Positions 11,037-26,386 of a stretch of DNA of 27,600 nt are shown here, one piece after another. Origin of the DNA: a virus; IMG/VR virus record IMGVR_UViG_3300037237_000493, positions 1 through 27,600 of that record; one strand, given 5' to 3'. The translations under genes were made by a program, and so were the position numbers. The notes under the pieces were generated by a model. The model saw only the letters and a program-made list of their open reading frames with translations. It had not been told where the DNA came from and ran no database searches. The first letter of the stretch is position 1; the number at the start of each line of letters is the position of its first letter.

Positions 11037-12242
11037 CTATTTAGCTACCGCTTTTCTTACCGCATTTTGAGCGAGAGTGGTTTGCGGAGCGAAGAAAGGA
11101 ACAGGTTCGGATTTTGCTTTATTGCTGCGTTTGGAGCCCTCAGGAGTAAAGTCTGACCGGATTTCGTTTTTTACTTCTTCGCGTGTTTTTTTAAGGCGGG
11201 TATTTGCGGCTTCAAGAGCATCTTTTGCCTCATTTAACAGAGCGTTCTGAGCGTGAAGCTTTGCTTTAATCTGGCTTATTCTGTTTTGAACGTTCAAAGG
11301 TTTTTTAGTGCTTTTAAACTTGTCTGTAGTGTCACTGTCATCATCATCTTCCGTCTCGGGGTCGGCATCAGGGTCAGTTTCCAATGGCACAATCTTTTGT
11401 ACCTGGCCGCCTTTTACTGCAACCTTACTTCCATCAGGTGTGGTATACGTGTCTGCCGGTGCCGGGCTGCTCATGTCTTCGTCCTGGTAAACTTCGGTGC
11501 CTTCATCCAGTTCGCCGGCGTGATGCAAAGTACCTTTGTCTGTAATGGTTTGTTTGTTTACTACCTTCTTAAAGAAGTTCATAATCTTATCTAAAACAGA
11601 TGTTGTTTTTTCGATAAGTTCTTTGTTTTCAATGTTCATGTTGCTGTTTTTGGTTAAGATTTTGTTTATATACCGTTGATAAAACACCGGCGCTATACTT
11701 ACATATTTTTTAATGATAGTACTGTTTGATATTTCGGTGTTATAATCTTCTACCTGGTCAATAAAGCCAAGTTCAAGCGCCTGGTCGGCAGATAACCAGG
11801 TGACGGAGTCGATCAAACTATTAACTGTAACTCCGTCCAACCCGGTTTTGTCAATGTATATCTGCGCCAGGCGCGATTGAACTATGTTTAACAGTTGCAC
11901 ATCTTTTAAAAGCTCATCAGCATTACCGCCAGAGCCTACCATCGGCTTATGGATCATTATCAGCGCGTATTTGCTCATCACCACCGTTTTACCACCCATG
12001 GCTACTATAGATGCTGCGGACGCTGCCAGGGCATCAATGTAAGTTGTTACAGTTCCTGAATATTTTTTCAGAAGATCATAAATGGCAATGGCATCAAATG
12101 CACTGCCGCCTACCGAACTGATATGAACATCTACATCCTGTCCTGCTGCGGCTTCCAATTCCAATTGAACGTATGATGATGACAAACTGCCCGAGCCTAT
12201 GCAATCGGTATCGGTATCATAGAGATATATTTTGTAATTCAT
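11037..12242 (-). CDS. ClpP-type prohead protease fused to a scaffold-like domain
   Basis: The 401-residue protein has an N-terminal S14 (ClpP-like) domain at residues 1-168: VHISSVGGSAFDAIAIYDLL, the nucleophile Ser75 in ALAASAAS, His98 in MIHKP and a probable Asp145 before WLSADQALELGFID. A linker (about 200-310) rich in Asp, Glu, Pro and Thr follows, then a helical coiled-coil-like segment (RISQIKAKLHAQNALLNEAKDALEAANTRL, 319-350) and a basic end. In many phages the maturation protease carries or overlaps the scaffold, which organises the prohead and is then digested. The next gene is the capsid protein, consistent with that job. Confidence 0.85.
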   Translation of the reverse strand: MNYKIYLYDTDTDCIGSGSLSSSYVQLELEAAAGQDVDVHISSVGGSAFDAIAIYDLLKKYSGTVTTYIDALAASAASIVAMGGKTVVMSKYALIMIHKPMVGSGGNADELLKDVQLLNIVQSRLAQIYIDKTGLDGVTVNSLIDSVTWLSADQALELGFIDQVEDYNTEISNSTIIKKYVSIAPVFYQRYINKILTKNSNMNIENKELIEKTTSVLDKIMNFFKKVVNKQTITDKGTLHHAGELDEGTEVYQDEDMSSPAPADTYTTPDGSKVAVKGGQVQKIVPLETDPDADPETEDDDDSDTTDKFKSTKKPLNVQNRISQIKAKLHAQNALLNEAKDALEAANTRLKKTREEVKNEIRSDFTPEGSKRSNKAKSEPVPFFAPQTTLAQNAVRKAVAK

Positions 12243-12354: not shown

Positions 12355-12363
12355 GTAATGATT

Positions 12364-12383
12364 ATTATGCTGATTGGCATAAT
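12364..12383. promoter_or_regulatory. Palindrome ATTATGC-N6-GCATAAT upstream of the protease/capsid genes
   Basis: ATTATGCTGATTGGCATAAT has perfect 7-bp arms. It belongs to the same family as sites at 15014, 23860 and 25941 (core ATGCC-N4-GGCAT; here one arm reads ATGCT). Read leftwards it is immediately downstream of GACCTTTG (12392-12385), close to a -7 box. It is a likely operator for transcription of the protease-capsid genes. Confidence 0.55.
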
Positions 12384-12403
12384 TCAAAGGTCAGGATTAT
12401 ATT

Positions 12404-12661
12404 TTACTTGGATGGTGACAATATTTTGTCAGTTTCGGAAAAACTATTCAACGCCCGCCATATGGTACGTTCATCTTTCATAAATTTAACCTCAGCTTCT
12501 AATACTGCCTGATTCTTTTTAATGCATCTTGTTTGAATTTGAGCGTTTACCCAAAGATAAATTTCACGGTATAAAAATACTTTGTCGGTAATAAACCCTG
12601 CTTTATACATTGCGGAGAATATACCATCATCAAAAAGGGTATTTGCAAGTTTGATATTCAT
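12404..12661 (-). CDS. Small helix-turn-helix-like phage protein
   Basis: The 85-residue, basic and mostly helical protein includes LYREIYLWVNAQIQTR and DERTIWRALNSFSE. The latter reads as the recognition helix of a winged-helix-like fold in small Bacteroidota phage proteins. It lies between the tape measure and the protease, where a structural role is unlikely, so it may regulate late genes. Its last codons (TDKILSPSK) overlap one of the two TGACA-N6-TGTCA dyads, and a palindrome follows shortly downstream. No direct evidence links it to either site. Confidence 0.5.
   Translation of the reverse strand: MNIKLANTLFDDGIFSAMYKAGFITDKVFLYREIYLWVNAQIQTRCIKKNQAVLEAEVKFMKDERTIWRALNSFSETDKILSPSK
12416..12431. 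promoter_or_regulatory. Inverted repeat TGACA-N6-TGTCA, copy 2
   Basis: TGACA (12416-12420), 6 nt, TGTCA (12427-12431), overlapping the 3' end of the small helix-turn-helix gene. Its flanks GATGGTGACA and TTTTGTCAG match copy 1 exactly. Confidence 0.4.
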
Positions 12662-12710
12662 TATATTATGATTTCACTGATGATTTTATGATTTCACCGA
12701 TTAAAATAAA

Positions 12711-12730
12711 TTCGAAATTGGACTTTCGAA
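12711..12730. repeat. Short hairpin after the tape-measure gene
   Basis: TTCGAAA (12711-12717), 6-nt loop, TTTCGAA (12724-12730). Nearby, TATGATTTCAC(T/C)GAT is repeated directly at about 12667 and 12687. There is no U-tract for a strong terminator. Confidence 0.35.
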
Positions 12731-12760
12731 ATCCGATATTATTTAAAAGACGCGGATTAC

Positions 12761-14989
12761 CTAAAGATTCACCCTATTAATAGTTTGCGCCAAAATATTT
12801 TGCTGATTATTCACATCTTTAACATCCACATAAACCGGCGGGAAATTGTTGATCATTTGGTATGCAATAGTATTGGCAAGATTTTTCTGATCGGTTACCG
12901 GTTGATTATAATACCGGTTTGCATCACCACCATCTGTAAATATACCCCCTACTGCGTAACCACGCCCGGGATTGGTTACAGAGAAATCACGACCGCCAAA
13001 GCCTACGTTTATAGCGCTTACCAGGTTACGTGCCCAAGGCACCTGCATGGCTTCGGAAACTACAATACCCTCACCGGAACGCAAATAGGCATTGGTATTG
13101 TCAGTCTTGCTATAGCCGGACAATAAGCCGCCGCGGCCGTCTGATGAAAAATGTAATCCGCCCCTTGCATAGGCAGGTGGTTTCTGGGTTGCTATTTTGG
13201 CCACCTGTGCTGCCGTTTCGGCAATTACTACTCCTATTTCTACCGGGGCAAGTACGCCGCTTTGTGCTGTCACCTTTGTTACTGCGATGGCGCCATTTAT
13301 AATTGCCTGGGCTATTGATGCCTCCTGTTCTTCTTTAAATGCCTTTGCTTTTATCTGACCTTCCTGCTGCCTGTATTTTTGTTCAATAGCCAGTTTCTGT
13401 GCCGAAGTTAAGCTGCTGTTACCAAGTTCGGCAGCCTTGTCTTTTTCCAGCGCGGCGATTTTAGCATTGCTTTGCTGTTTAATGCTGCTGGTAAGTACGT
13501 TAAGCGCATCGGTCGCCATTTTACCTGCCGATTGCTTGGTATAATCTTCAACCTGTTGCAATGCTGTTTTTTTTATCTCAACCGTTTTATCGGCGGTACT
13601 TTGTTCACTGACTATTTGAATATTCTTTACTTCTTCTTCTTTTGATTTTACATCGGTATCCGAAATCGTGCTACCACCCGACTGACCTGTTGGAAGTTCT
13701 TCACCTCTTTGCGTCGATTTATTCTCGTCCGCATAGGTTGTTTTTACCTGTTTTGACACTTGTTTATGATAACCAATTAACCTATCAGTAGATTCTTTTA
13801 CTTGCTTTTCATGTTTTTCTACATGTTTCCCCGCTTGTTCATATCCTTTTTTATATGCAGCAACCATTTGATTGACCGTATCTTGCGCACCTTTTTTGAC
13901 AGCGTTGAATGCTGTCCCTGCTTTATCTGTTGCATTCGTTATACCGGTAAAAGCCTGGATAGCTCCATTACTGACTTTTTTAAAATCAAGATGGATAATC
14001 CCATCCAATATAATACTGATAGCTTTAAAGCGATTAATAAGATTTTCTTCTATCGCTTGTCCTAATGCTTTCAGGGTATCAATGGGATGCGAAAAAGCTT
14101 TAATAATTGTTTCTGTAAATAAATTAAAAAACTCCTGTACTTCATTTACAACTACACCAATTGCAGAAATAGCTCCTTTTAATACTTTGCTGCCTTCAGA
14201 TGTTTTAATAAAATAGTTAAACATCATTTGCAGTATTTGGAGTAAAAATTCGAAACCATCAGTCTTTATAGCTTCACCAACCCCATTAAAACCATCCCTA
14301 ACGAGAGACAGGCCAGTTTTCATTACATTAAAGCCTTCAGATGCTTCTTTTAAGCTTGGACCAAATAAACCTGAAACATTCTTTATCTCATCAAAGGAGG
14401 TTTTTAGGTGATCCAGTGTGACCTTGTGCGCATCAAAGACCGTTTTGTTGCCATTTACAATAGCTGTCTGTTCACCAAAGACATTATTTACTGCATTGAT
14501 ATTTCCTTCTAATTGTTTAGAACCAGCTGTTCCTTTTACAATACTCTCCGCATAATCGTCCAATGCACTTTTACCTTCGCCGGTGCTGCCTTTTTGTTGC
14601 TTTACAGACTGACCTAATGAATTTATCTGTCCGCTTAGTTCCTTTATTTTAATGGAACTGTCGCTTGCAGCTTTTGCATTCTTTTGATGCTGCGCAGTTA
14701 ACGATGACAGCGAACCCTCAGCGGTTTTACCTGATGCGCCCAACGAATTGATGGCCGCGGTATTCGCAGTTACCTGGGCATTTACATCCTGCAATCGTTT
14801 TTGGAAGGTCTCCAATTTCGAGGAAACACTTTCAAACGCTGCCGAATTTTGCTGACCAGCAGCGCTCAATTCTTTTTGCTTTGCCAGGAGGCTGTCAATA
14901 TTTTTATTTAGGTCAGTTATATTTTGTGTGAGCTTTTCAGCCTCTAACTCAACTTCAATTGTTATCTTTTTGTTAATATCGTCTGACAT
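12761..14989 (-). CDS. Tail tape-measure protein
   Basis: This is a 742-residue protein and the longest in the window. The N-terminal third is a coiled coil with a heptad-like pattern (EVELEAEKLTQNITDLNKNIDSL; SSKLETFQKRLQDVN). The middle has hydrophobic helices (about 245-310 and 580-620) that could cross a membrane during DNA ejection. The C-terminus has the Gly-rich ARGGLHFSSDGRGGLLSGYS segment typical of Bacteroidota tape measures. It sets tail length and chaperones tube polymerisation. By the usual length rule (about 1.5 angstrom per residue) the tail would be near 110 nm, which is only an estimate. A palindrome of the phage-wide family lies just upstream (15014-15027), suggesting its own transcription start. 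Confidence 0.83.
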   Translation of the reverse strand: MSDDINKKITIEVELEAEKLTQNITDLNKNIDSLLAKQKELSAAGQQNSAAFESVSSKLETFQKRLQDVNAQVTANTAAINSLGASGKTAEGSLSSLTAQHQKNAKAASDSSIKIKELSGQINSLGQSVKQQKGSTGEGKSALDDYAESIVKGTAGSKQLEGNINAVNNVFGEQTAIVNGNKTVFDAHKVTLDHLKTSFDEIKNVSGLFGPSLKEASEGFNVMKTGLSLVRDGFNGVGEAIKTDGFEFLLQILQMMFNYFIKTSEGSKVLKGAISAIGVVVNEVQEFFNLFTETIIKAFSHPIDTLKALGQAIEENLINRFKAISIILDGIIHLDFKKVSNGAIQAFTGITNATDKAGTAFNAVKKGAQDTVNQMVAAYKKGYEQAGKHVEKHEKQVKESTDRLIGYHKQVSKQVKTTYADENKSTQRGEELPTGQSGGSTISDTDVKSKEEEVKNIQIVSEQSTADKTVEIKKTALQQVEDYTKQSAGKMATDALNVLTSSIKQQSNAKIAALEKDKAAELGNSSLTSAQKLAIEQKYRQQEGQIKAKAFKEEQEASIAQAIINGAIAVTKVTAQSGVLAPVEIGVVIAETAAQVAKIATQKPPAYARGGLHFSSDGRGGLLSGYSKTDNTNAYLRSGEGIVVSEAMQVPWARNLVSAINVGFGGRDFSVTNPGRGYAVGGIFTDGGDANRYYNQPVTDQKNLANTIAYQMINNFPPVYVDVKDVNNQQNILAQTINRVNL

Positions 14990-15013
14990 GGTTTAGTTTA
15001 ATTTATGAATAAT

Positions 15014-15027
15014 ATTCCAATTGGCAT
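15014..15027. promoter_or_regulatory. Palindrome-family site upstream of the tape measure
   Basis: ATTCCAATTGGCAT (core ATGCC-N4-GGCAT with one mismatch in the left arm), followed by AAT as in the other copies. It is 25 bp upstream of the tape-measure start and directly after the terminator of the moron gene, where a new promoter is expected. Confidence 0.5.
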
Positions 15028-15037
15028 AATAAATGTT

Positions 15038-15063
15038 AAAAAAAAGCCCATTATGGACTTTTT
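15038..15063 (-). terminator. Rho-independent terminator of the moron gene
   Basis: On the minus strand, AAAAAGUCCA, a UAA loop and UGGGCUUUUU can pair completely with one G-U wobble, followed by a run of eight U. It begins 6 nt after the stop codon of the 15070-15645 gene. Confidence 0.75.
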
Positions 15064-15069
15064 TCGCCG

Positions 15070-15645
15070 CTAAAAATCAGATTTTTCTTTTGCCTTCTCA
15101 GCAGCCTGAGCTTCCGCATAAAGTGTATCATTCTGATATAAAACTATAATATCTAATTTACTGGTAATCGATGCCTGAATCGAGTTGGTGCCGGATTGCC
15201 AATCGGTAAACAAATCGGCGTAACCTTGTTCTATTGCAAGCGTTTCATGACCATCGCCATTCTTGAATGGTGATTTAAATTCACTCGTCGGTGTCCCTGA
15301 TCCATAAATTCCATTGATATCACTAACCAGGCCGTCGTAATATTCAATTGTTTTTGGATCCTCTTCAGCTTTGAAAGCAAATACTGCAGAATAGGCTTTA
15401 TCCTTTATAAATTTAACAACAAAATCAACAGCCAGCCGGTGGCCCAATTTTACATTGTCAAAGTCTAAATGATCAACCCCAGAATTATCTTTATTTAGCA
15501 TAGCTCCTTTCGCCTTCATAGCGGCGATTACAACCGCCTTAGTGCTTCCAAATTTAATACCCAAAAAACCTTCAATAGGCTTTAATGTTTGTGAAATTCC
15601 TAAAAAAGGAATTAATAATAGTGTGATAAGTAAGGTCTTTTTCAT
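15070..15645 (-). CDS. Secreted protein of unknown function, prophage moron
   Basis: The 191-residue protein begins with a clear Sec signal peptide (MKKTLLITLLLIPFLGISQ, cleavage near residue 19). The mature part, starting LKPIEGFLGIKFGSTKAVVIAAMKAKG and containing LDFDNVKLGHRLAVDFVVKFIKDKAYSAVFAF, resembles periplasmic host proteins of Bacteroidota. I do not know a function. It has its own promoter (15665-15696) and terminator (15038-15063) between two large tail genes, which is the definition of a moron. Expression in the lysogen, for example to alter the envelope or exclude other phages, is a reasonable inference. It is not expected to be part of the virion. Confidence 0.7.
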   Translation of the reverse strand: MKKTLLITLLLIPFLGISQTLKPIEGFLGIKFGSTKAVVIAAMKAKGAMLNKDNSGVDHLDFDNVKLGHRLAVDFVVKFIKDKAYSAVFAFKAEEDPKTIEYYDGLVSDINGIYGSGTPTSEFKSPFKNGDGHETLAIEQGYADLFTDWQSGTNSIQASITSKLDIIVLYQNDTLYAEAQAAEKAKEKSDF

Positions 15646-15664
15646 GATTTGCTAATTTTTTTGG

Positions 15665-15696
15665 TAAATTTAATAAAGGCTAATATATAAAACAAA
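15665..15696 (-). promoter_or_regulatory. Promoter of the moron gene
   Basis: On the minus strand, TTTG (15696-15693), 20 nt, TAAATTTA (15672-15665), a seven-of-eight match to the Bacteroidota -7 box. The start codon follows about 20 nt downstream. Confidence 0.55.
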
Positions 15697-15762
15697 TTTA
15701 ATTACGGGTATTTTAATTAAATGTAATTTCCTAACCAAAAGGAGAATATTAAAATGCTTTCA

Positions 15763-17823
15763 TTATCCCAGCTTCACCAATTCTACTTTTGTAGGCTGCC
15801 CTTTGCGCCATGCATCTATTTTATTGATGTAATAATATGCACTGTCCTGTTGTATATAAACAGGCATGAGCAGGTCAAGCTCAAGTATATCCCTGGGTGT
15901 AAGTAAAATGTACCGCACCACCTTTTTTGTTTGAGTCAGTATTTTCTCCAGTTCAGGATAGTACTTTTTCCGCAAATCATCAAACAACAAACTTGCTTCG
16001 CCATAACCTGGTTCAGGTTCTGGTGCATATGGCTTATAGAAGTAAGGTATACTTATTATGTCATTAACATAACGGTTATTACCGAAACCGTCAGTAAATG
16101 TAATAGTTTTACTTAAAGCTTCTATATTCAGTTTTTGATCTATCAGTATGCGCGGCGCAACACTTATGCTAAAATTACTGTTGCTACTGGTGCTGTCAAT
16201 CATAGCAATCTGGGCTACCGTACCACCATAATATGGGCGATTTAAACTAGGCCCAAAAGGGCTTTCGAATAATGTGGCATTTGCGGGCAAAGTTTGATCA
16301 GGTATTCTTATCTGCGACCATCCGAATTTTAAGGGTAATATATTTTCATCGGTCTGGTATTGCATATAATTTACCTGGGCATAATTGCCTAACTGGAAGG
16401 CGACCTGCTTGCCCTGGTTAAGGCATTTAGATGTCCAGTCATTTGCTACAGGAATATTATTTACGATAGCACGAAATGAATTAAAGGATATGGTTTTAGT
16501 TGTATTGTCCGTTTGACAAATAATGCCAAAGCGCTGCATGGTATCTTTTAGTAAGTCCTTTTCACTTAAATCAGGAAAAATACGCTCGCATTGAACTGTT
16601 TGTCCAAATAACACCAGCTGATTTTCTGATTTTATAGTTAATTCTGAGCCCTGTGCCATTGCGAAATTTGACTGGGAATAACCATTAAATCTATATGCTA
16701 TCCTTATTTTTCCGTTAGCTGGTAACTCCGTTTTAAATGAGAGAACTGTTTTTGGTGTTATGGTATAACCATGCCTGTAGGGCCCCATCCGTATTAAGGT
16801 AGGATTATCCGACAAATAAAAATTAGATTTAGTTAACTGAACGTCTCCGTTTACCGGATCAGTGTATATTATTATGATATCAACATTTGCTGCAAAGCTC
16901 CCATTATAATTACCATAAAAATAAAAGGACGGGATGGTTAACGTTATTGTAACACTGTTTATTTCGTTTGTTGTATAAATACCAGTTGAAGGATTATAAA
17001 AGCCGCTAACATTTGATATAACATAAGGGAATATTATTGTGCCACCAGGCTCTGAAAGATTGTTGTAAGTGACGTTTAACGATTGTGTCAATGATACATC
17101 GCACCCCTTATTATCAATTTGATTTTGATAATCAGTACCGTGCTCAAAACTCCCGTTCGAAAACTGGGCTATCATTAAAGGATAAAGCGGATCGCCAAGC
17201 AATGATCCTGTAGCTTTGTAGCCTGACGATTGTAACAACAGGTCAATAGCTGTTTTTATAAAAAAACCGGGGCGCAGGTTATGCACGTCAATTGAAGCTG
17301 TAAAATCGTCAGTCATAAAACCATAGTCAATTACAGGATATATCCATCCATCGGTTTTGGTTTGTGAATTCGCAGCATTATCTAAATCCCACACATGATC
17401 ATAAGGCTGCCAAACCAAGTTTTGGCCATAATTGCTCCATTGACTGGTACTATCACCCATATCATACAGTGTGCCATCAATAGCGTCAAAAAAATCTACG
17501 TTACCTGATAGAATGGTAATATTTGCCGTATCCTGATCAATCCCGTTTAATTCGCCGATACCGTAAGGGATTATCTCGAGGCCATCCTGGATAATCTTCG
17601 CCTGGTATTGTTGATAAGGCAGGTTGGTGGTAAAGGCTATATCATCCGGAAAGCCAAGGATTTGCCGGTTGCGCTGTGTTAAAGGCAATTTAAATTGGTT
17701 TGATGTATTTCCCTGCTGGTTTTTCACTTCGGCCAAATCATTGATCTGGAAAGTAAGTGCAATAGGGCTATCATTGCTGAGATCGACTAACTGATCATTT
17801 AAGTATAGTTGGAGTTGGTCCAT
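15763..17823 (-). CDS. Large tail protein (baseplate/tail-hub candidate)
   Basis: From the ATG at 17823 this is 686 residues (a GTG at 17838 would add five). The start MDQLQLYLNDQLVDLSNDSPIALTFQINDLAEVKNQQGNTSNQFKLPLTQRNRQILGF is typical of large Bacteroidota phage tail proteins, where the NQFKLP..RNR segment is conserved. The rest is beta-rich, with a C-terminal LLTPRDILELDLLMPVYIQQDSAYYYINKIDAWRKGQPTKVELVKL block. It lies beside another large tail protein and on the other side of the moron from the tape measure, as expected for distal tail or hub genes. The precise role is not established. Confidence 0.65.
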   Translation of the reverse strand: MDQLQLYLNDQLVDLSNDSPIALTFQINDLAEVKNQQGNTSNQFKLPLTQRNRQILGFPDDIAFTTNLPYQQYQAKIIQDGLEIIPYGIGELNGIDQDTANITILSGNVDFFDAIDGTLYDMGDSTSQWSNYGQNLVWQPYDHVWDLDNAANSQTKTDGWIYPVIDYGFMTDDFTASIDVHNLRPGFFIKTAIDLLLQSSGYKATGSLLGDPLYPLMIAQFSNGSFEHGTDYQNQIDNKGCDVSLTQSLNVTYNNLSEPGGTIIFPYVISNVSGFYNPSTGIYTTNEINSVTITLTIPSFYFYGNYNGSFAANVDIIIIYTDPVNGDVQLTKSNFYLSDNPTLIRMGPYRHGYTITPKTVLSFKTELPANGKIRIAYRFNGYSQSNFAMAQGSELTIKSENQLVLFGQTVQCERIFPDLSEKDLLKDTMQRFGIICQTDNTTKTISFNSFRAIVNNIPVANDWTSKCLNQGKQVAFQLGNYAQVNYMQYQTDENILPLKFGWSQIRIPDQTLPANATLFESPFGPSLNRPYYGGTVAQIAMIDSTSSNSNFSISVAPRILIDQKLNIEALSKTITFTDGFGNNRYVNDIISIPYFYKPYAPEPEPGYGEASLLFDDLRKKYYPELEKILTQTKKVVRYILLTPRDILELDLLMPVYIQQDSAYYYINKIDAWRKGQPTKVELVKLG

Positions 17824-17830
17824 AATTTTA

Positions 17831-17913
17831 AGTATCACGTATTTAGTATCGAGTATTTAGTATTTAAAGTTCATTGCGGCTTTCTTGCGCCCTGATACTT
17901 AGTACTTGATACT
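17831..17913. repeat. Hairpin-forming spacer between two tail genes
   Basis: AGTATCACGTATTTAGTATC (17831-17850) and GATACTTAGTACTTGATACT (17894-17913) are complementary at 17 of 20 positions. GTATTTAGTAT is also repeated directly in the left arm. The structure spans nearly the entire spacer. Confidence 0.5.
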
Positions 17914-17920
17914 ATATTAA

Positions 17921-20038
17921 TTACTGCGTTTGTATATTGATTGAAGGCAGGTTAAATGTTACACTAAAAGGCGCCTGGCTATTTAGCGTTTCATACTCTG
18001 CAAAGGTGGCTGTGTTTAGCACAATGGTTTGCCATTTAACCGGGTTTTTGTTCACCAGCATTTGAACTTTCGGTGAGTATTTTATAGACTGCAATCCTTT
18101 AATATCGTTAACAGAAAGGTCTTCAGCCATAACCTTTATCTTTTGTCCTGCGCTTTTTCCTATTACTTCTTCAATACTATCCTGATTTTCCCAATCAAAT
18201 ACATAATTTTTAATGATCACTGCGTTTTGAACATCTAAAGACACTTCCTGGTTATAAACAAAACGATAGTAATTCCAGCTTCCGCTTAAGCCTATCCAGC
18301 GCAGGTAAACGGATTGTTCATCTATTGCATTATCAAGCCTTACAGTTTGAGTTTGTGTAACATTATACGTAGTCCCCCCGTTGTCATATTTAAGTGATAA
18401 GGTAAAATAATACACATCTGTATCGAAGCTTGTATTTATAAGCAGCCGGTTTAAGCCAAGCTGTGCAGGTATAGATACATTTACCGAAGTTTGACTGGCA
18501 ATAATTAATTTACTACCATCCTGGTTTAGCAGCCACGAGCCATCATCATTTAAAAGGTAGCTGGTTTGGAGCCCACCATCTAACGGATTTCGGTTAATGT
18601 CTAAGAGTGTGAGCACGTAATACAATTGAAGTCCAATCAGGTAATCACTGTAGATAAAACCAATATCAAAAGGATACCCGTTCGAGAATGCTGGTTCAGC
18701 AAAATCTGTTATCCACGCGGCTAACTGACTGTTATTAGCTAACGTGCGGAATGGAACATAAGCAGCCAGGTTCCCGCCATAACGTTCACCTAATTGTTTT
18801 GCTGCGTATAATACATAATATGGGTTTGTAATTGGTATATAAGTTAATGTTTGATTGCCGATTAATTTGCCGTCCCAATATTCCGCATAGGCAACCTGGT
18901 AGCTGGCACTCAGGTTAGTGTCCCTGAAGTTTATCTGTGTATAATTACTAACATCCTTCGCGTACAGCAAACTCTGCAGAAAGTTGGAAATATCTGCCTT
19001 CACTAATCCGGAATTATCCGGTCTGTTTGTTGATGTAATTGTATTTTGACTGCCGCTAACCGGGTCCTGATAGGTTATTTGCGTTCGTACCTGGTAATAA
19101 GGACGCAATAAGTTGATATTAATAAAGCCTGTTGAAGTTGAGATGTAAGGAGTGTTTAAAATCAAAACTCCTGTGGCTGGCACTGAAACTACCTGAAATA
19201 CGCCAATGTATACATCGGCATTAATGTATACATAAACTGCATTATTATTTGTTAATACAATATTTAAAAGGGCAGCATTTGTTATAGCCTGGTTGTTAGC
19301 AATAATTGCATTTGCTATAGATGCTGTGTCACAATTAACTGATACTGCTGCATTCCCGGTCAATGTATCTAAATTAACTGCTGTTACTTCAAAGTCTTTG
19401 CGCTGATAAGTAAAAACAACAGGGTTAAAGGCAGAATTCCACCTGGAGACGTTGCCGCCGGTTAAATTTACTGAAGGATCGGAAATCAGTAAATTACTTA
19501 AAACGGGTATGGTTATACTTGAAGTATTAGTACAACCATTGGCATCGGTTATGTAAACTATTTTTACCCCTCCGGTTAAACCAGTAAATGTTGATGTAGA
19601 TTGAAAAGTCACATTATCAAGGCTGTACATAATTGGCTGGTTGCTTGATACAGCATTTACTGTGATTTGTGCATTTGCAGCGCCTGGCGCCGACTCAGGA
19701 TTATCTACATTAATATAGTTGATAGTCAGATCACATACATTTACCGGCGGGGCAGGATTAGGTACAGTGCCTACGTTGTCTATTTGAAATTTTGTAAAGA
19801 AAGGATGCAACGGATCCTGATCACTAAGCAAACCGCTATATATTGTAGTGGCTTGCCCGGGAATTGTTACTTCGTCATCAGAAACTACACCGTTAATATT
19901 TTGCGTATAACTTATAATAATATTATTTCCATTGATTAGTTGGCCTGTAGCAGCATCAAAAAGTGAAATAACCACAACCCCGTTTATCTGAGTTCCGGTT
20001 ACGCTGGTATTTTCAGGACTTATTTTAGCGATTATCAT
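17921..20038 (-). CDS. Large tail protein with SprB-like repeat domain
   Basis: The 705-residue protein has an N-terminal beta domain (about 1-100). A stretch at 104-180 has the SprB repeat pattern: CDLTI..INVDNPESAPGAANAQITV, YSLDNVTFQSTSTFTGLTGG, then VYITDANGCTNT. Large beta-rich regions follow that contain tyrosine-rich motifs. SprB repeats are known from the gliding adhesins of Flavobacterium; in a phage tail such a domain could contact the host surface. The stop precedes the next tail gene by about 100 bp of hairpin-forming spacer. Together with 15763-17823 it probably forms the tail tip. Confidence 0.65.
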   Translation of the reverse strand: MIIAKISPENTSVTGTQINGVVVISLFDAATGQLINGNNIIISYTQNINGVVSDDEVTIPGQATTIYSGLLSDQDPLHPFFTKFQIDNVGTVPNPAPPVNVCDLTINYINVDNPESAPGAANAQITVNAVSSNQPIMYSLDNVTFQSTSTFTGLTGGVKIVYITDANGCTNTSSITIPVLSNLLISDPSVNLTGGNVSRWNSAFNPVVFTYQRKDFEVTAVNLDTLTGNAAVSVNCDTASIANAIIANNQAITNAALLNIVLTNNNAVYVYINADVYIGVFQVVSVPATGVLILNTPYISTSTGFININLLRPYYQVRTQITYQDPVSGSQNTITSTNRPDNSGLVKADISNFLQSLLYAKDVSNYTQINFRDTNLSASYQVAYAEYWDGKLIGNQTLTYIPITNPYYVLYAAKQLGERYGGNLAAYVPFRTLANNSQLAAWITDFAEPAFSNGYPFDIGFIYSDYLIGLQLYYVLTLLDINRNPLDGGLQTSYLLNDDGSWLLNQDGSKLIIASQTSVNVSIPAQLGLNRLLINTSFDTDVYYFTLSLKYDNGGTTYNVTQTQTVRLDNAIDEQSVYLRWIGLSGSWNYYRFVYNQEVSLDVQNAVIIKNYVFDWENQDSIEEVIGKSAGQKIKVMAEDLSVNDIKGLQSIKYSPKVQMLVNKNPVKWQTIVLNTATFAEYETLNSQAPFSVTFNLPSINIQTQ

Positions 20039-20110
20039 TTTGGTTGATTAAGTTGGATTTGATTAAATCGTTGATTATTTAAATTTTGGACTGATCAGGT
20101 TAGATTTAAG

Positions 20111-20545
20111 TTAACCAATCAACCTGATCATCTCTTCACTTATAGAATCGGCAATGATATCCATGACAGGATTTAGCCTTAGGTTGATGTTGTCTTCTCC
20201 CAACGGCTCAGTGAGAATGCCCGCTGTGCCTTTATAACCCTTTTTATCTATTGACTTTTTAATTGCCCACGCAGCTTTATCAGGAATTCCTTTAGCCTGG
20301 CACCATTGCTGTATTCGCTGAATCATTGGCGGATCTCCAGCTACCGCGTCTTTATTCGTTGGTCCCCTTCCTGTCTCTAAAACCAGCATGTAACCAGGGA
20401 GTTGGAGTTGTAATTTGCCATCATTATTTAAAATAATGATTTGTGTGGCAGTTTGTCCAGTTGCATATTTACCATTGGCCTGCAATGAGTTAATTATATC
20501 TGTTTTTAGTGATTCTAAAAATTGAGTAAGTTGATCATCATACAT
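20111..20545 (-). CDS. Small tail/neck protein, possibly HK97 gp10-like
   Basis: The 144-residue protein has an N-terminal amphipathic helix (LTQFLESLKTDIINSLQ), central strands ending in LVLETGRGPTN, a PPMIQRIQQWCQAKGI helix and a C-terminal LNPVMDIIADSISEEMIRLIG helix. The 'ETGRGP...P..I..W....GI' layout is common in HK97 gp10-like tail-completion proteins. It follows the tail-terminator-like gene and precedes the large tail genes. Confidence 0.55.
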   Translation of the reverse strand: MYDDQLTQFLESLKTDIINSLQANGKYATGQTATQIIILNNDGKLQLQLPGYMLVLETGRGPTNKDAVAGDPPMIQRIQQWCQAKGIPDKAAWAIKKSIDKKGYKGTAGILTEPLGEDNINLRLNPVMDIIADSISEEMIRLIG

Positions 20546-20588
20546 GGTTGATTGCTTATTCGATGGTTATAAATCATAATTCTCATTG

Positions 20589-21035
20589 TTAATAACTTTG
20601 AAAATACATAGTGGCTAAACTGATAGTCAGATTAACACCACAGGTATTAACGTCAAACTTATTGTAGACAGGAAGACATTTCGCCTGCTCACCGGCTTTA
20701 ATCCGGAAATAACGGCCTTCACCTTCACGATATGTGGATGCTTTAACAATAAATTCATTTGCCATGGATAAAGCCTGGTTTACGTAAGTCTCATTTTCAG
20801 CGGTATATTGATCGAATTCCGTTTTTAAAAGAAATTCAAGGTAAATTGAAAAAGTATTGTCTACTGAGCCGTTTACCTGCGGCGATACATTAATTGGTTG
20901 CAATGGGTACATAAATACACATGGAAATGATGCATCGTCAGCCAATAGATTAAGCTCGTTTATAGTGCCATAAACAAAGGTTGGTGCACTATTTAAAGTT
21001 TGAATTATGGCTTCAATTTGATTACGTATAGGCAT
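20589..21035 (-). CDS. Small tail protein, tail-terminator candidate
   Basis: This is a 148-residue alpha/beta protein: helix RNQIEAIIQTLN, strands around FPCVFMYPLQPINV, an acidic helix NETYVNQALSMANEFIVKAS and C-terminal strands VNTCGVNLTISLATMYFQSY. The pattern fits tail terminator / minor tail proteins that cap the tube. It is the first gene after the chaperone pair. Function inferred from size, pattern and place. Confidence 0.5.
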   Translation of the reverse strand: MPIRNQIEAIIQTLNSAPTFVYGTINELNLLADDASFPCVFMYPLQPINVSPQVNGSVDNTFSIYLEFLLKTEFDQYTAENETYVNQALSMANEFIVKASTYREGEGRYFRIKAGEQAKCLPVYNKFDVNTCGVNLTISLATMYFQSY

Positions 21036-21193
21036 TTGATTTATGATTTTAGATTTACGAATTACGATTTAGAATATTTGTTTGATGAGAAAAATAGTTT
21101 GTGTTTTTATAAAGTCTTTTGCCGGGACTTGAATATGAATTGTGCTGATTTTGATTCCGATATTACTTTTTAAAACATTTATAAAATTGTAAA

Positions 21194-21480
21194 TCAATTC
21201 GTTTGCAAAAGTTCGCCATACCGCTTTTGATACTCCGCCTCTGTCTTATTAAGCAAAAGTTTGGTCAATACACGTTCGTACGGCATATTTAATATTTCAC
21301 CCCATTTTGTGATATCCCCACCGGCAAGGGAATTGATGGTATTTATATATTTAAATTTTTCGAACGATTTAATCCCGGCCTTTTTTTCCAGGAGCGATGG
21401 AAACGATACCAAAAGTTTATTTTCTGTCTCGATAAGGCCGGATAACAAGTAAAAAAATGTTTGGCTATGGGCAGCGCCTC
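21194..21480 (-). CDS. Tail assembly chaperone, frameshift extension (T part of G-T)
   Basis: The frame is open from about 21475 to 21194 on the minus strand and overlaps the 3' end of the upstream chaperone gene in the -1 phase. Its only own start would be a TTG at 21448, which is weak. A slip at 21451-21457 gives a fusion of 195 upstream residues plus Tyr and 84 residues beginning LLSGLIETENKLLVSFPSLL and ending LLQTN, 280 in total. This is the arrangement of lambda G and G-T, where the minor fusion product binds the tape measure. Residues ITKWGEILNMPYERVLTKLL resemble small T-domain helices. Confidence 0.65.
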
Positions 21481-22035
21481 CGTTACCCTAAGTTTTTTTA
21501 CTTCGTTATTAAATTCTTCGGCCTCATATTCATTGTACCTTTTATTGGTAATCCTGCAAAAAAAGTAATGTGCCAGCACCTGACAACAAGCCTTTAATGA
21601 TGGATTAAAATTCTGTTTCCAATCATTTTCGCCGTATTGTTTTATGTGTTCATTTATCTCGTCGGCTATAATATCCCTGGCTGCCATGAATGCCCCGGCT
21701 GGTTCCACCGATAAATTACGAATAACGTTTACTGTCGTACGCTGTTTACCTGAATAAAAATTCACCTTTGCGGGGATAGCGTCACTATTATAAAGATTTT
21801 TAATTTGGTACGATAACGATAAGACATATTCTTCAAATACAGCAAAATCACTTATATTACTTACATTTTTCAACTCTCCAAAAGATATACCCGATAGAAT
21901 GCTGATAGCTTCAAGGTCATTGAGGTTAGGTTTTTCCTGCATTTCCATCATCTGACCCAATGTGACCTCATTTAAGGAGTTTGGTATTTTTATCCGTAAC
22001 TTACCTTTAGTGGTTTTTAGTGTTTTTTCTATCAT
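21343..22035 (-). CDS. Tail assembly chaperone (G-like)
   Basis: The 230-residue protein starts with a beta region (KLRIKIPNSLNEVTLGQMMEMQEKPNLNDLEAISILSG) and continues with long helices, with ACCQVLAHYFFCRITNKRYNEYEAEEFNNEVKKLRVTEALPIAKHFF near the end. Its last about 35 residues (CYPALSRQKINFWYRFHRSWKKRPG...) look random and basic, as expected when a normal stop ends a gene whose meaningful frame continues after a -1 shift. It is soluble and probably coats the tape measure during tail assembly. The direct neighbour is the terminase large subunit, while the tape measure is about 6 kb further on, an unusual separation. Confidence 0.7.
   Translation of the reverse strand: MIEKTLKTTKGKLRIKIPNSLNEVTLGQMMEMQEKPNLNDLEAISILSGISFGELKNVSNISDFAVFEEYVLSLSYQIKNLYNSDAIPAKVNFYSGKQRTTVNVIRNLSVEPAGAFMAARDIIADEINEHIKQYGENDWKQNFNPSLKACCQVLAHYFFCRITNKRYNEYEAEEFNNEVKKLRVTEALPIAKHFFTCYPALSRQKINFWYRFHRSWKKRPGLNRSKNLNI
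21451..21457 (-). promoter_or_regulatory. -1 ribosomal frameshift slippery site
   Basis: On the coding strand the bases are T_TTT_TTT in the zero frame (codons CAT TTT TTT ACT). Both tRNAs can re-pair perfectly after a -1 slip, and the next codons in the new frame are TAC TTG TTA. It sits inside the window open in both frames. An A7 run at 21381-21387 is in the wrong phase for a canonical simultaneous slip. Confidence 0.65.
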
Positions 22036-22187
22036 ACTTTAATTTGATTTCAATGATTATCAAAAGATTAACAGGTGTTTATAAATGCATTCTTATAATA
22101 ACAGCATATCCATGGAATTTACGGGTTTAACATTTTTATATGGAAGCCTGCTTACCGGAGCTTTTAGATTATTGATTTTTAATTTAT

Positions 22188-23318
22188 TTATGCAACATAT
22201 CGTAAAGGATCTACCAAATGGTTATTCACATCAATAGGTTCATTTATAACTTTTCCCGACTGGTCGGTTTTCCATTTATAGCGCCCTAATTCGTTACGCA
22301 GGTTAACACTTTGTCGGGTAACATTTATTTTATAGCGTTTAAGTATGTCTATTGAATTTTTTACACTGTCTGCTCCTTTTTTCGCGCCAATAATATTCCA
22401 GCCAAGCCGCCGCAATTCTTCAATCGATTTTGGTTCGGCGCTATCAGCTATAATTTCAGTGCCTTTGTTTATTCCTGCATTTGTTAATTTGACAGCTATA
22501 TCCGGATTAGTTAGTCTTTTTTCATAAAGTACTTCATCAACCCACAATTCACCATTCTGACGGTACACTAATATGACTCCGGTTTCATCGTTAGCAAAGC
22601 CAAAATCCAGTCCTCCGGCTAATAATTTTGCATCCTCGGGAATTTTTTCACAAATATGCCAATTATTAAAAACAAGGCCGGTAATTTTTCCGGTTAGGCC
22701 GCGTGCATAAACACGCCAGAGCTCTGTATCTACCTTTTTTAATGCTTCTATTTTAAACCTGGTTTGTTCTTCTAAAAAAGGGTTGTGTCTATGATCAGAT
22801 ATTATAAGTTGAACATTTGGTTTTCCCATCAATTTTTCATGCACCCAGAAGGCGCAATTAGGGTTAAAATCAATAAAAATTTTTCTCTTTGTCCGTAATT
22901 CCAGTTCAATAAAAATAGGCCATTCAACCCCATTTGCCTCATTTACAAATAAGTAATCTCTCTTCCCGGATTTTGCATCCTGTGCGTTGTCGTAACTTTT
23001 AAACTCGATAATTGAGCCGTTATGGAATTCAAATATCCGGTCTGTCTTGTTAAAGCTCTTAACCGAAGCCTGTATGGCCTCAGAAGAAGAATAAATGCTT
23101 ACTGCATCTCGTAATGCTCCCGCTTTTAGGTTAGGTATATCCTGTCCAACCACTGTAATTATTTGTTTTTCAGTTTCGCATGCAAGGCTAAATAATACCT
23201 GTTCAATAGCATAAGTCTTACCAGAACTGGTACCTCCCTGATTTACGACAATATGCGCGGTGCTGTAATAATTTTGCCTAAAAAGAACGGAACCTTCAAA
23301 TTTCTGCAAATCAATCAT
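22188..23318 (-). CDS. terL: Terminase large subunit (PBSX type)
   Basis: The 376-residue protein is the packaging motor: it translocates DNA into the prohead and cuts concatemers. The ATPase half has Walker A GGTSSGKT (28-35) and Walker B YLFVNEAN (122-129) with catalytic Glu127. The nuclease half has LDFGFAND with Asp238, IIADSAEP with Asp292 and a C-terminal HLVDPLRY with Asp370, the three metal-binding acids of RNase-H-like terminase nucleases. All key residues are present. It is slightly shorter than typical PBSX-type proteins. It is transcribed after the small subunit in the same unit. Confidence 0.93.
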   Translation of the reverse strand: MIDLQKFEGSVLFRQNYYSTAHIVVNQGGTSSGKTYAIEQVLFSLACETEKQIITVVGQDIPNLKAGALRDAVSIYSSSEAIQASVKSFNKTDRIFEFHNGSIIEFKSYDNAQDAKSGKRDYLFVNEANGVEWPIFIELELRTKRKIFIDFNPNCAFWVHEKLMGKPNVQLIISDHRHNPFLEEQTRFKIEALKKVDTELWRVYARGLTGKITGLVFNNWHICEKIPEDAKLLAGGLDFGFANDETGVILVYRQNGELWVDEVLYEKRLTNPDIAVKLTNAGINKGTEIIADSAEPKSIEELRRLGWNIIGAKKGADSVKNSIDILKRYKINVTRQSVNLRNELGRYKWKTDQSGKVINEPIDVNNHLVDPLRYVA

Positions 23319-23379
23319 TTAGTTCTCCTTTTTCCTGCTGTTTATTAAAATCATTTGTTTTAATTAACAGTTACCTAAA

Positions 23380-23841
23380 TTATAAAACTACTTCCTTTTC
23401 ATTGTTTGCAGGTTTTGGACCTGTTTCTATGATTTCAATTTTTAATGTTTTGAAAGCAGTTTTACCTGTTAGTTTGTTTTCGGTTTTATCGTTCCATCCC
23501 ATATTTTTGAGTGCAAAAATTGCTCCTGAAGGTGATGACAGATGCAACTTTTTTTCGTAAACATCCTCTATACGCAAACGGCCCCGTTTAAGAAAGCTTG
23601 CAAACCGCCCATTCTCTTCATATTTTTCAAATGCCTTTTTGCTGTGAAAACCAAGAAAAATTGCAAGCCCGGTCAGAGTTGGGGGTTCAGGTTCACGGAT
23701 CCATATTTTTTGTTTTGAATTAGGAAGTTTAGACTCGGTTAAGGACTTGCCATTTAAATCAAATACACCTTCTATATAATTAAAATAATCATCAATGCGG
23801 CTCATCAATTCATTTGAAGTGGTAAAAGAATATTTCCGCAT
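23380..23841 (-). CDS. terS: Terminase small subunit
   Basis: This 153-residue protein recognises phage DNA for packaging. The central PPTLTGLAIFLGFHSKKAFEKYEENGRFASFLKRGRLRIEDVYEKKL has the helix-turn-helix pattern (LTGLAIFLGF...KAFEKYEE) of small terminases, and the SGAIFALKNMGWNDKTENKLTG segment near the end is common in this family, ahead of a basic tail. It is the first late gene, with a good promoter and a palindromic operator-like site directly upstream. Confidence 0.85.
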   Translation of the reverse strand: MRKYSFTTSNELMSRIDDYFNYIEGVFDLNGKSLTESKLPNSKQKIWIREPEPPTLTGLAIFLGFHSKKAFEKYEENGRFASFLKRGRLRIEDVYEKKLHLSSPSGAIFALKNMGWNDKTENKLTGKTAFKTLKIEIIETGPKPANNEKEVVL

Positions 23842-23859
23842 TTTTTATTTATGATTAAA

Positions 23860-23873
23860 ATGCCGATTGGCAT
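23860..23873. promoter_or_regulatory. Palindromic operator-like site at the late promoter
   Basis: ATGCCGATTGGCAT has perfect 5-bp arms. It lies directly downstream of the -7 box of the terS promoter, about where transcription starts, the position expected for a repressor site. It belongs to the family with members at 12364, 15014 and 25941. Confidence 0.6.
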
Positions 23874-23883
23874 AATACAGATG

Positions 23884-23915
23884 TAAAGGTACGCATCTTT
23901 ATTGTTAAATGCAAA
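23884..23915 (-). promoter_or_regulatory. Late-operon promoter in front of terS
   Basis: On the minus strand, TTTG (23915-23912), 20 nt, TACCTTTA (23891-23884), a seven-of-eight match to TAnnTTTG. Transcription would start about 23877 and run through the late genes. Confidence 0.6.
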
Positions 23916-24203
23916 TATTTTTAGTATTTAACTGTTTTGGTCTGAATGACGAAAGCTATATTATCTAATAAAAATATCTTAAAAAATTCAGGACCTATTT
24001 TATCAGTTTATTTGTCATTAGATATAATTGTTTTTATTAAATTTAAAGTGTTAAAAGCAAAAAAGTATATTATAATCATTGAAATTAGTGGAAAGACATA
24101 ATAAAGTTAAATTATGTTAAAACGTTGATTAAATTTCTATTTAAGGCAACTATTGTTATCGTAAATTCGTTAATTGTTAGTAGATTTAATTAATAATTTA
24201 AAT
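23916..24203. other. Divergent intergenic region between terS and the lipoprotein
   Basis: The whole gap (23842-24203, 362 bp) is strongly AT-rich. Its left end holds the late promoter and operator-like palindrome. For the rest I see no ORF, RNA gene or convincing structure; the lipoprotein promoter must lie here, but no full consensus match was found. Confidence 0.5.
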
Positions 24204-24803
24204 ATGAATAAAACGAGGTTTACTATTCTGTTAATTTCCTTTTTTATGATTCTTTTTGTCATGATTTCATCATGCCAAAAAGATCCTGTGGAAAAGGATA
24301 CTAATCCGGAAAAAACAAACCTTAATGCAGATAGCGCTAATGTAAGTTCTATTGTAAACGCTCCAGGTAACTATCTTGCTGCAACCGGTATCCTCACAAT
24401 TAAAATTAAAGATTCGATCTATATTTTTGATGCAAGTAAAGATTCCATTGCCTTTGTTAATGTACATATTGATGAGAATAATCAATATTTTGGTATTACC
24501 GCCATTAATAAAGAACACACAATGAGCTTTGGCATCAGTTCAGCCGGTTCTGTAAACAATAATATTAGTAGCGGCATAGCCGGAAGTCAGCTTTTGTTAA
24601 ACCAGGATGAAAATAAAGCTGGCTTGCAATATTCTTTAAGCAGGTATGCGGGTCAAAAAGATTTTGGGACTATTAACATTATTCAATACAACCAGCAAAA
24701 TGAACTTGCTAAAGGTACCTTCTTTACTTTCCTTGCGAAAGATGATAAAGCTAATTCCCCCTTCTACAAAGTTGAAGGCAGTTTTGACCTTCAGTTAAAA
24801 TAG
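24204..24803 (+). CDS. Lipoprotein of unknown function (prophage cargo)
   Basis: From the ATG at 24204 this is a 199-residue protein with a lipoprotein signal peptide (MNKTRFTILLISFFMILFVM) and lipobox ISSC (Cys24), followed by Gln-Lys-Asp. A TTG ten codons earlier is an unlikely start. The mature part is beta-rich: NYLAATGILTIKIKDSIYIF, AFVNVHIDENNQYFGITAI and a C-terminal YKVEGSFDLQLK. The layout resembles the small DUF6252-type lipoproteins of Bacteroidota, but this is not certain. It is on the plus strand, opposite to the late genes, so it may be expressed in the lysogen. Surface modification or superinfection exclusion is an inference. Confidence 0.7.
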   Translation: MNKTRFTILLISFFMILFVMISSCQKDPVEKDTNPEKTNLNADSANVSSIVNAPGNYLAATGILTIKIKDSIYIFDASKDSIAFVNVHIDENNQYFGITAINKEHTMSFGISSAGSVNNNISSGIAGSQLLLNQDENKAGLQYSLSRYAGQKDFGTINIIQYNQQNELAKGTFFTFLAKDDKANSPFYKVEGSFDLQLK

Positions 24804-24983
24804 TAGATATTCAATTCGAAAAATAACACTTGTTAAGCTTTTAAATCTCTTAACCATCAGTCAAATATCCGGGTTAATATTAGTAATTGCTGCGTAATAA
24901 TACGTTCACAGAAAATGTTTGTAGAACTAAGAATGGAAAAATGTCCTGTTTTTGCTTACATTTACATAAATTTAAAAACATTG

Positions 24984-25271
24984 ATGAAAGTATTTATTGC
25001 AGGGCTCCCATTAGAAGTGGATGAGGCTGAACTAACGGCTGTTTTTGGTGATTTTGGGCCGGTAAAGTCGCTCAGAATTATTAAAGACCGTGAAACAAAA
25101 GAGAGTAAGGGTTTTGGTTTTGTTGAAATGGTGAATGATAACGAGGCAAAAGAGGCAATCAGGTGCATGAACGGTGCGAGTTACTATGGTCGCAGAATAA
25201 CAGTGAACATAGCAGAAGACAAAGGCCCTGGTTTCAACGCCAGCAGTAAAGGCAGTTTCCGACGAAATTAA
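24984..25271 (+). CDS. Single-RRM RNA-binding protein
   Basis: From the ATG at 24984 this is a 95-residue protein with one RNA-recognition motif: RNP2 VFIAGL (3-8), RNP1 KGFGFVEM (42-49), and the expected LTAVFGDFGPVKSLRIIKD and AIRCMNGASYYGRRITVNIAE segments. The C-terminus is short, Gly/Ser/Arg-rich and basic. It should bind single-stranded RNA in the cytoplasm. Such proteins are common in Bacteroidota chromosomes, where they act as post-transcriptional regulators or RNA chaperones. Its location within a prophage is unusual. An in-frame earlier TTG-type start is not supported. A strong terminator follows. Confidence 0.85.
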   Translation: MKVFIAGLPLEVDEAELTAVFGDFGPVKSLRIIKDRETKESKGFGFVEMVNDNEAKEAIRCMNGASYYGRRITVNIAEDKGPGFNASSKGSFRRN

Positions 25272-25293
25272 TTGCAATAATAATTTTTTTATC

Positions 25294-25330
25294 AAAAGCT
25301 CTCCGATAGGCCAGAGAGCTTTTTATTTTT
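25294..25330 (+). terminator. Rho-independent terminator after the RRM gene
   Basis: AAAAGCTCTC (25294-25303) and GAGAGCTTTT (25314-25323) form a perfect 10-bp stem with a 10-nt loop, followed by TATTTTT. It starts 22 nt after the stop codon. Confidence 0.85.
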
Positions 25331-25419
25331 GCAGTTGTAAATTAAAACATTCCTCATCTAAACAATTTTCATTAAGTTACGTATATCATACCTGTTAAAA
25401 TTATTAATCGATTAAAATT

Positions 25420-25617
25420 ATGGCAAAAAAATTTAAATTAGGAGACGTAGTTGTAATGGCAGCCGATGGCCCTAAAATGGTTGTTGAAAGCTATTTATTA
25501 AACGAAAATATACCAGGACAATTCATCGAAAGCGAAGATTTTGTGAACGTTGTTTATTTTACCAGCGTTGGTTTTAAGCGTGATACTTTTCACCAGAACA
25601 TCTTGTTGTTTGCTTAA
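25420..25617 (+). CDS. YodC/DUF2158-like small protein
   Basis: The 65-residue protein begins MAKKFKLGDVVVMAADGPKMVVES, which has the KxGDVV...GGPKMxV pattern of YodC (DUF2158) proteins, small SH3-like domains widespread in bacteria. The molecular function is unknown. The rest (FVNVVYFTSVGFKRDTFHQNILLF) also fits: an aromatic strand followed by the family-typical F-x-x-x-x-L end. It is monocistronic after a terminator and probably belongs to the prophage cargo block. Confidence 0.65.
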   Translation: MAKKFKLGDVVVMAADGPKMVVESYLLNENIPGQFIESEDFVNVVYFTSVGFKRDTFHQNILLFA

Positions 25618-25639
25618 TAGATTTAAACCTTAAAACCAT

Positions 25640-25792
25640 TTAAATAGTATCCTTTATTTCGGAGTGGTCATATATTTTTTGCTGTAGATCAATACTACTT
25701 GCATTATAGTGTTTTATAATTATTAGCATCAAAGAAATAATTGATGCCATAAAAATTATCACAAGCCAGTTTTTTAAGTGTTTCATTTGCAT
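25640..25792 (-). CDS. Candidate 50-residue single-span membrane peptide
   Basis: Reading leftwards from ATG 25792 (or a second ATG at 25786) to TAA 25640, the frame encodes MKHLKNWLVIIFMASIISLM..., one hydrophobic helix of about 20 residues (positions 8-26) with positively charged flanks, then a polar tail with HYNASSIDLQQKIYDHSEIKDTI. The pattern (positive N-terminus, one helix) fits a true inner-membrane peptide. It is preceded by an 18-bp direct repeat (25801-25839). No homologue is recognised, so a chance ORF in AT-rich DNA remains possible. Confidence 0.4.
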   Translation of the reverse strand: MQMKHLKNWLVIIFMASIISLMLIIIKHYNASSIDLQQKIYDHSEIKDTI

Positions 25793-25800
25793 AAGATTTG

Positions 25801-25839
25801 ATTTAGTTAATATTGATTAGTATTTAGTTAATATTGATT
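25801..25839. repeat. 18-bp direct repeat with 21-bp period
   Basis: ATTTAGTTAATATTGATT occurs at 25801-25818 and again at 25822-25839. The 21-bp period equals two helical turns, so two protein molecules could bind the same face. It is 9 bp upstream of the small membrane peptide start. Confidence 0.5.
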
Positions 25840-25940
25840 TAACAAGTGTGATTCAAAGAGAAGAAACGACTTTAAAAAGAGTTATCTTTTTAACATTCCA
25901 TTTTCTTTGGTTTTTTATTTAAATAACGTTATATGATTGT

Positions 25941-25956
25941 TATGCCATTTGGCATA
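25941..25956. promoter_or_regulatory. Perfect palindrome TATGCCA-N2-TGGCATA
   Basis: TATGCCATTTGGCATA has 7-bp arms and is the best copy of the ATGCC-N4-GGCAT family. It lies 13 bp after the 25970-26386 gene, upstream of the small membrane peptide, and reads next to TAATTTAC on the minus strand. Confidence 0.55.
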
Positions 25957-25969
25957 TGTAAATTATAAT

Positions 25970-26386
25970 TTACCAGGGCTCAATCCCTATTGCTTCAGTT
26001 TCCACTAGCTCGGTAAGCAATAATCTTAATACGGCCTCACGGGCCCATTGTTGTTCTGTAGTTGATGCATCATCCCGGTACCAATTAATAGGGTCATTTA
26101 TTTCAATACGTGTTTTGTAAATAAAGTTCTTTGTGGGATGCATTTTGGCACCCTCGTAACTGTTCAGGTTTTCAGTTTTTATAACTTTTGCAAGTTGTTT
26201 TGCAGGTATATCAATCTTCAGGCATTCATCAAGGGAATTTTTAAAATCCTGTTTATCCTCGAGCCACATTGTTAAAATGTCTTCATCAATTTCATGTTCA
26301 GCAATCGTAATACGGCTATAATCGTAATCTACAGAGATTACGAGCCACCATAATTTGTCTTTTAATTTTTTAGGAATCTTTATCAT
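25970..26386 (-). CDS. Early-region protein of unknown function
   Basis: This is a 138-residue acidic protein (WLVISVDYDYSRITIAEHEIDEDILTMWLEDKQDF..., C-terminal WAREAVLRLLLTELVETEAIGIEPW). There is no signal peptide, membrane helix or recognised motif. It follows the 26487-26678 ORF in the leftward unit that faces the repressor, so it is probably an early or lysis-lysogeny gene. A small hairpin (CCATTG/CAATGG, 26405-26424) lies in front of its start. Confidence 0.5.
   Translation of the reverse strand: MIKIPKKLKDKLWWLVISVDYDYSRITIAEHEIDEDILTMWLEDKQDFKNSLDECLKIDIPAKQLAKVIKTENLNSYEGAKMHPTKNFIYKTRIEINDPINWYRDDASTTEQQWAREAVLRLLLTELVETEAIGIEPW

Follow-up and report, generated by a model that had tools for sequence, protein, structure and literature searches.

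A one-way palindromic element at the late genes of an apparently domesticated phage locus in Mucilaginibacter

The DNA analysed here (the window) is the whole of IMG/VR record IMGVR_UViG_3300037237_000493, 27,600 nucleotides, and its relatives are chromosomal loci of the soil bacterium Mucilaginibacter. It carries four copies of a palindromic element, three of them ahead of late phage-type genes and one behind an early gene. An earlier reading of the letters alone (the sequence-only reading) had reported four palindromes with the core ATGCC-N4-GGCAT; their sequences and positions were confirmed, all of them between open reading frames (ORFs). Aligned on the minus strand, all four palindromes run on into a common AATCAT/TTCAT tail, with the consensus T-ATGCC-AAty-RGCAT-wwwAAwCAtaa. 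Because every copy extends into this shared tail, the element, about 25 bp long, is directional. Copies A, B and C stand in sense before the protease gene, the tape-measure gene and terS, respectively, and copy D lies just after the early gene p25970:

12358..12381, minus strand: copy A, 115 nt ahead of the start of the maturation protease gene, with the -7 box GACCTTTG before it at 12387-12394
15005..15028, minus strand: copy B, 15 nt ahead of the tape-measure start and behind a terminator-like hairpin with a T-run
23851..23874, minus strand: copy C, 9 nt upstream of terS, following a canonical promoter with the -7 box TACCTTTA
25933..25956, minus strand: copy D, 14 nt past the p25970 stop codon

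With up to 2 mismatches allowed, TTATGCC-N4-GGCATAA occurs at 4 sites in the window, exactly the four noted before, whereas 400 dinucleotide shuffles gave 0.2 such sites on average and never more than 2. The short core ATGCC-N4-GGCAT, at the same tolerance, is not enriched in the window (14 found vs 11.5 expected), and the significance therefore rests on the longer form.

The neighbouring genes and their family matches are as follows:

11037..12242, minus strand: head maturation protease, ClpP-like (phrog_94, E 1.3e-57; PF00574)
12404..12661, minus strand: p12404, a small helical late-module protein, helix-turn-helix (HTH)-like (weak HTH matches; AlphaFold2 (AF2) pLDDT 93)
12761..14989, minus strand: tape-measure protein (phrog_1533, E 2.9e-5)
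22188..23318, minus strand: terL, large terminase subunit (phrog_5653, E 5.8e-32; PF17288)
23380..23841, minus strand: terS, small terminase subunit (phrog_606, E 3e-15; PF16677, E 1.3e-10)
25970..26386, minus strand: p25970, predicted alpha/beta fold with no known match (AF2 pLDDT 90), co-occurring with the element
26487..26678, minus strand: p26487, 63 aa, opening the operon that faces the S24 gene; conserved alongside S24 and p25970
26847..26858, plus strand: AAGA-N4-TCTT, likely S24 operator, at -52 from the S24 start
26899..27600, plus strand: S24 repressor-like protein (PF00717, E 1.1e-8; phrog_4)

Between copies D and C, at 24915-25271, lies a gene for an RRM RNA-binding protein (PF00076, E 2.6e-22) that comes near NCBIfam Rbp_regulator, below its cut-off; this gene and a lipoprotein gene in the same interval are apparently host-type genes adjoining the locus. 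Copy A is flanked by a second repeat, GATGGTGACA-N3-TTTTGTCAGT with arms TGACA/TGTCA, at 12333-12355 and 12412-12434. One copy of this repeat is the end of the p12404 gene, the other resembles its duplicate, and several relatives share it.

To follow the element beyond the window, relative loci were retrieved via terL, tape measure and protease; an IMG/VR scan with the long pattern gave 14 stretches, several contigs being common to it and the terL search. Relatives hold the element at the corresponding places: before terS, before the protease gene, before the tape-measure gene and right after p25970. A weight matrix built from these sites was run over ten regions of 60-110 kb. The modules, 304 kb in total, contain 42 strong copies, whereas the 505 kb of host DNA around them contain none; 20 column-scrambled matrices gave 0 matches. 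All 42 strong copies are in sense, and 36 are intergenic, the remaining 6 falling at the very start of over-long terS or tape-measure ORFs. Since the training sites of the matrix include copies from the scanned loci, the informative results are that the flanks are empty, how the copies are oriented and where they are placed. The sequence-only reading had proposed motif density in host DNA and conservation before terS and tape-measure homologues as checks, and both came out in its favour. Also supported is its view of one regulon-like element marking the packaging, tape-measure and capsid-maturation units.

A site matching D follows shortly after the p25970 stop in 37 of 47 relatives. When such sites were picked by their palindrome letters alone within 50 nt of the stop, a partly independent check, the AAwCAT tail (at least 4 of 5 letters) was present in 29/37. 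The distance from element to start codon varies from 3 to more than 300 nt: at terS the median is 8 nt and often 3-8, and at the protease gene the median is 165 (range 46-365). A host-wide regulon was considered and rejected; across 16 host genomes the core palindrome exceeds its reversed control by only a modest margin, with the locus itself supplying some of the excess, and matches to the long pattern are concentrated at the locus. In a phage that otherwise differs, a lone element-like site (9588 of L384, G153) immediately follows a gene with weak similarity to p9723; it may reflect chance or transfer.

The sequence-only reading had also placed a -7 box beside each of the four copies. This holds for terS and the protease, where the boxes are conserved. 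Among nonredundant relatives, a -7 box lies within 30 nt before the terS element in 56/58, vs 2/58 in a downstream control stretch, with -18 as the commonest start; the promoter is canonical for Bacteroidota (TTTG, about 20 nt, TAYCTTTR). At the protease gene the box occurs in 35/52 relatives, most often starting at -12, with GAYCTTTG 4 nt ahead of the element. The tape-measure site has no conserved box (4/36 relatives vs 4/36 in the control), and the frequency at D, 7/35 vs 3/35, is not clearly above control. The conserved Bacteroidota -7 box is thus confined to the terS and protease copies. At the relatives' tape-measure sites a T-run is present in 17/36, and a terminator-like hairpin precedes the element in 12/37.

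The premise that this is DNA of an ordinary phage proved wrong. p25970 is present in 126 of 150 Mucilaginibacter species. Trees of terL and host rpoB share 15 of 26 splits (shuffled null maximum 2), and their distances correlate with a Mantel r of 0.69, a value reached in 0/5000 permutations. Within subclades the order of the host genes on either side is conserved, in 9/10 genomes a YCF48-like gene comes after the module, and no integrase (PF00589) was found inside the module in ten genomes. For terL, the nonsynonymous divergence (dN) is 0.016-0.084 at a synonymous divergence (dS) of 0.27-1.55, and portal and p9723 behave similarly. Strong purifying selection acts on the structural as well as the regulatory genes. 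The p25970 prevalence, the terL-rpoB agreement, the syntenic flanks, the missing integrase and the low dN/dS show that it is a domesticated phage locus, passed on vertically in Mucilaginibacter. In three species the locus is shortened (L383 in G296, L386 in G185, L387 in G054): the final portion of terL is fused to p9723, and tape measure, p12404 and protease are missing.

Which protein reads the element? Both candidate binders named in the sequence-only reading, the S24 repressor and the 12404-12661 protein, lost ground. One or two AAGA-N4-TCT[TG] sites stand near the S24 start in 11/11 loci, the AAGA-N4-TCTT sites preceding the S24 gene by roughly 50 and 30 nt (window 26847-26858; L299-L318). 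They are probably S24 operators, and none of these 11 loci has an element copy beside the S24 gene. The helical p12404 was likewise rejected: its HTH-like matches are weak (Mu Mor, Z 5.1; DeoR, Z 4.5), and it occupies the same place between tape measure and protease in related, syntenic phages that have neither the element nor the cassette of S24, p26487 and p25970. Four such distant phage relatives (L397-L404; G060, G043, G288, G254) show the late order tape measure, p12404, protease, portal with genes tightly packed; no element was found in them, and a search for exact-arm palindromes in outgroup phages gave nothing useful. The RRM protein was discarded as well, being absent from some element-bearing loci (G003) and apparently of host type.

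The element travels with the S24-p26487-p25970 cassette and is absent from syntenic phages without it. In G009, G010, G044 and G085 the cassette lies about 45-140 kb from the late genes, and element copies are retained; these separated cassettes (L415, L416, L417 and L420, in G009, G044, G085 and G010) have no adjacent copy D. It is moderately probable, on this pattern of co-occurrence, that the binder is encoded in the cassette. Within it, p25970 is preferred over p26487 as the candidate factor by size and conservation only, which is the weakest step of the argument.

The palindrome could act as DNA, as RNA or as coding sequence. In a set of 232 nonredundant sites, arm changes are one-sided and never compensatory, and the innermost pair, C4-R9, is C-A in 37%. 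Because the search pattern behind this set prescribes part of the left arm, conservation of that arm is partly built in; at the p25970-anchored sites, selected without the pattern, the left arm likewise varies little. The absence of compensatory changes favours base-specific recognition by a protein over an RNA stem, and for that reason an RNA hairpin was dropped as the conserved feature. An element bound or processed as RNA, in late mRNA leaders and at the 3' end of the p25970 mRNA, would suit the sense orientation of every copy and its place in or just before transcribed non-coding stretches, including the one after p25970, where nothing downstream needs a promoter. It fits poorly with the one-sided arm changes, the lack of any Rfam match in the window and the variable distance to the start codon, and we consider it unlikely. 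The strong copies can also be translated from their ATG as M-P-x-G/S-I, as if ATGCC opened a short ORF for a leader peptide. However, third codon positions are among the most conserved (the third base of codon 7 is C in 223/232), and 54/232 copies have an in-frame stop within 8 codons, which leaves the leader peptide with practically no probability and led us to exclude it. That the sites form a dedicated protein-binding element of this locus is very probable.

How such a protein might act can be outlined as follows. S24 would bind its own AAGA-N4-TCTT operators and keep the p26487-p25970 operon off. Once S24 is inactivated, the operon product, preferably p25970, would be made and would bind the dyad ATGCC-N4-RGCAT at the beginning of the late units. 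There it would work with RNA polymerase in one direction, as an activator or antiterminator in the manner of lambda Q or Caulobacter GafZ, and would thereby turn on the terS, tape-measure and protease units jointly. The scheme draws support from the canonical promoter directly before the terS copies together with the terminators before part of the tape-measure copies, and from the retention of both cassette and late genes though they stand at separate loci in four genomes. The scheme follows the analogy of RogA, GafYZ and the GafZ palindrome in Caulobacter; in our estimate it has somewhat less than an even chance as a whole, and positive control of the elongation type is plausible, if below even odds.

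Several observations weigh against such activation. The element is placed after terminators, not before them, and a site downstream of a canonical promoter would also suit a repressor. Copy D is kept in G001, G004 and G008, where it faces away from the late genes, and a simple activator site does not explain this. The predicted structure of p25970 gave no informative fold match and has no recognisable DNA-binding fold, and no repeated palindrome was found beside distant p25970 homologues in other prophages, which thus appear to lack the element. One alternative is an operator or stoperator, through which a repressor, either a host protein or S24 using a second mode of binding, would block initiation at terS and the protease gene and elongation elsewhere, keeping the locus silent. 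At terS and the protease gene the elements sit at the transcription start, beside a canonical promoter that would be active without such a block, and the sense orientation and proximity to start or stop codons recall the stoperators of L5-type mycobacteriophages (PMC9283540). Yet S24 has probable operators of a different kind, with no element there, no repressor other than S24 was found in the cassette, and the early promoter is free of the element in ten loci. We rate an operator of this kind as less likely than not; a repressor or roadblock role comes close in likelihood to the favoured activation scheme. The tape-measure copies, having no -7 box and sometimes following a terminator, would need a new start there, as if the element were itself a late promoter, used by RNA polymerase that a phage-derived factor has modified and starting transcription immediately past CATAA. 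But terS often begins 3-8 nt past the element, which leaves no room for a leader, and an ordinary -7 box lies upstream at terS and the protease gene; a stand-alone promoter is therefore very unlikely.

Vertical inheritance, presence in most of the genus, purifying selection on the virion genes and the missing integrase are as expected of a gene transfer agent or domesticated phage locus, and the locus is a candidate of the gene-transfer-agent-like kind; its particle may move DNA (a gene transfer agent), kill (PBSX- or tailocin-like) or serve otherwise. In the open-access literature, gene transfer agents are reported in Alphaproteobacteria and a few other lineages and none was found for Bacteroidota, while one Mucilaginibacter paper mentions 'proviral sequences' without further analysis. 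A tentative and fairly unlikely proposal is that Bacteroidota have here a gene transfer agent of their own: a domesticated, genus-wide siphovirus-like locus that would package host DNA, its late units switched on together through a multi-site, one-way palindrome read by a new late regulator (p25970) under S24. Selection on a phage-derived particle locus across a whole genus indicates a benefit to the host, and suggests that Mucilaginibacter keeps and controls a phage-like particle of its own. The element and the three-gene cassette provide direct handles for turning the locus on and testing the packaged content. It also follows that many IMG/VR 'virus' contigs of this type are inherited host loci.

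Among known systems, lambda Q at pR' is a product of an early operon that acts on a constitutive late promoter through promoter-proximal DNA. The locus described here resembles it in the scheme of an early product and a constitutive late promoter, with the mechanism inferred, and differs in that lambda has one site per phage, at a different position. The start-associated sequences of cluster K mycobacteriophages are likewise conserved repeats with dyad symmetry just upstream of start codons, but their few-base spacing is matched at terS (median 8 nt) and not at the protease gene (46-365 nt), and copy D follows a stop codon. The stoperators of L5-type mycobacteriophages share the arrangement of several one-way sites between genes, near start or stop codons and along transcription; they are asymmetric and bound by the immunity repressor, whereas the element has a dyad core and S24 another, probable operator.

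In Caulobacter, RogA represses gafYZ, and GafZ binds a palindrome and antiterminates (PMC11150451). Control of that gene transfer agent is similar: its locus is a domesticated phage locus, a repressor stands before an operon of two genes, the late promoter carries a palindrome, and the cluster contains terminators (PMC11150451). There, however, the palindrome is located between -10 and -35 of a single promoter, whereas here it lies downstream of the -7 box and occurs in several copies with a tail. Given this difference in position, the likeness to the GafZ element is one of arrangement and at most an analogy, not membership. As for FpGTA of Faecalibacterium, particles and packaging were shown there, while the present locus is known from its genes, and phylum and gene order differ; what the two have in common is a phage-derived cluster that is near-ubiquitous in its genus and partly split over two loci (PMC12946183).

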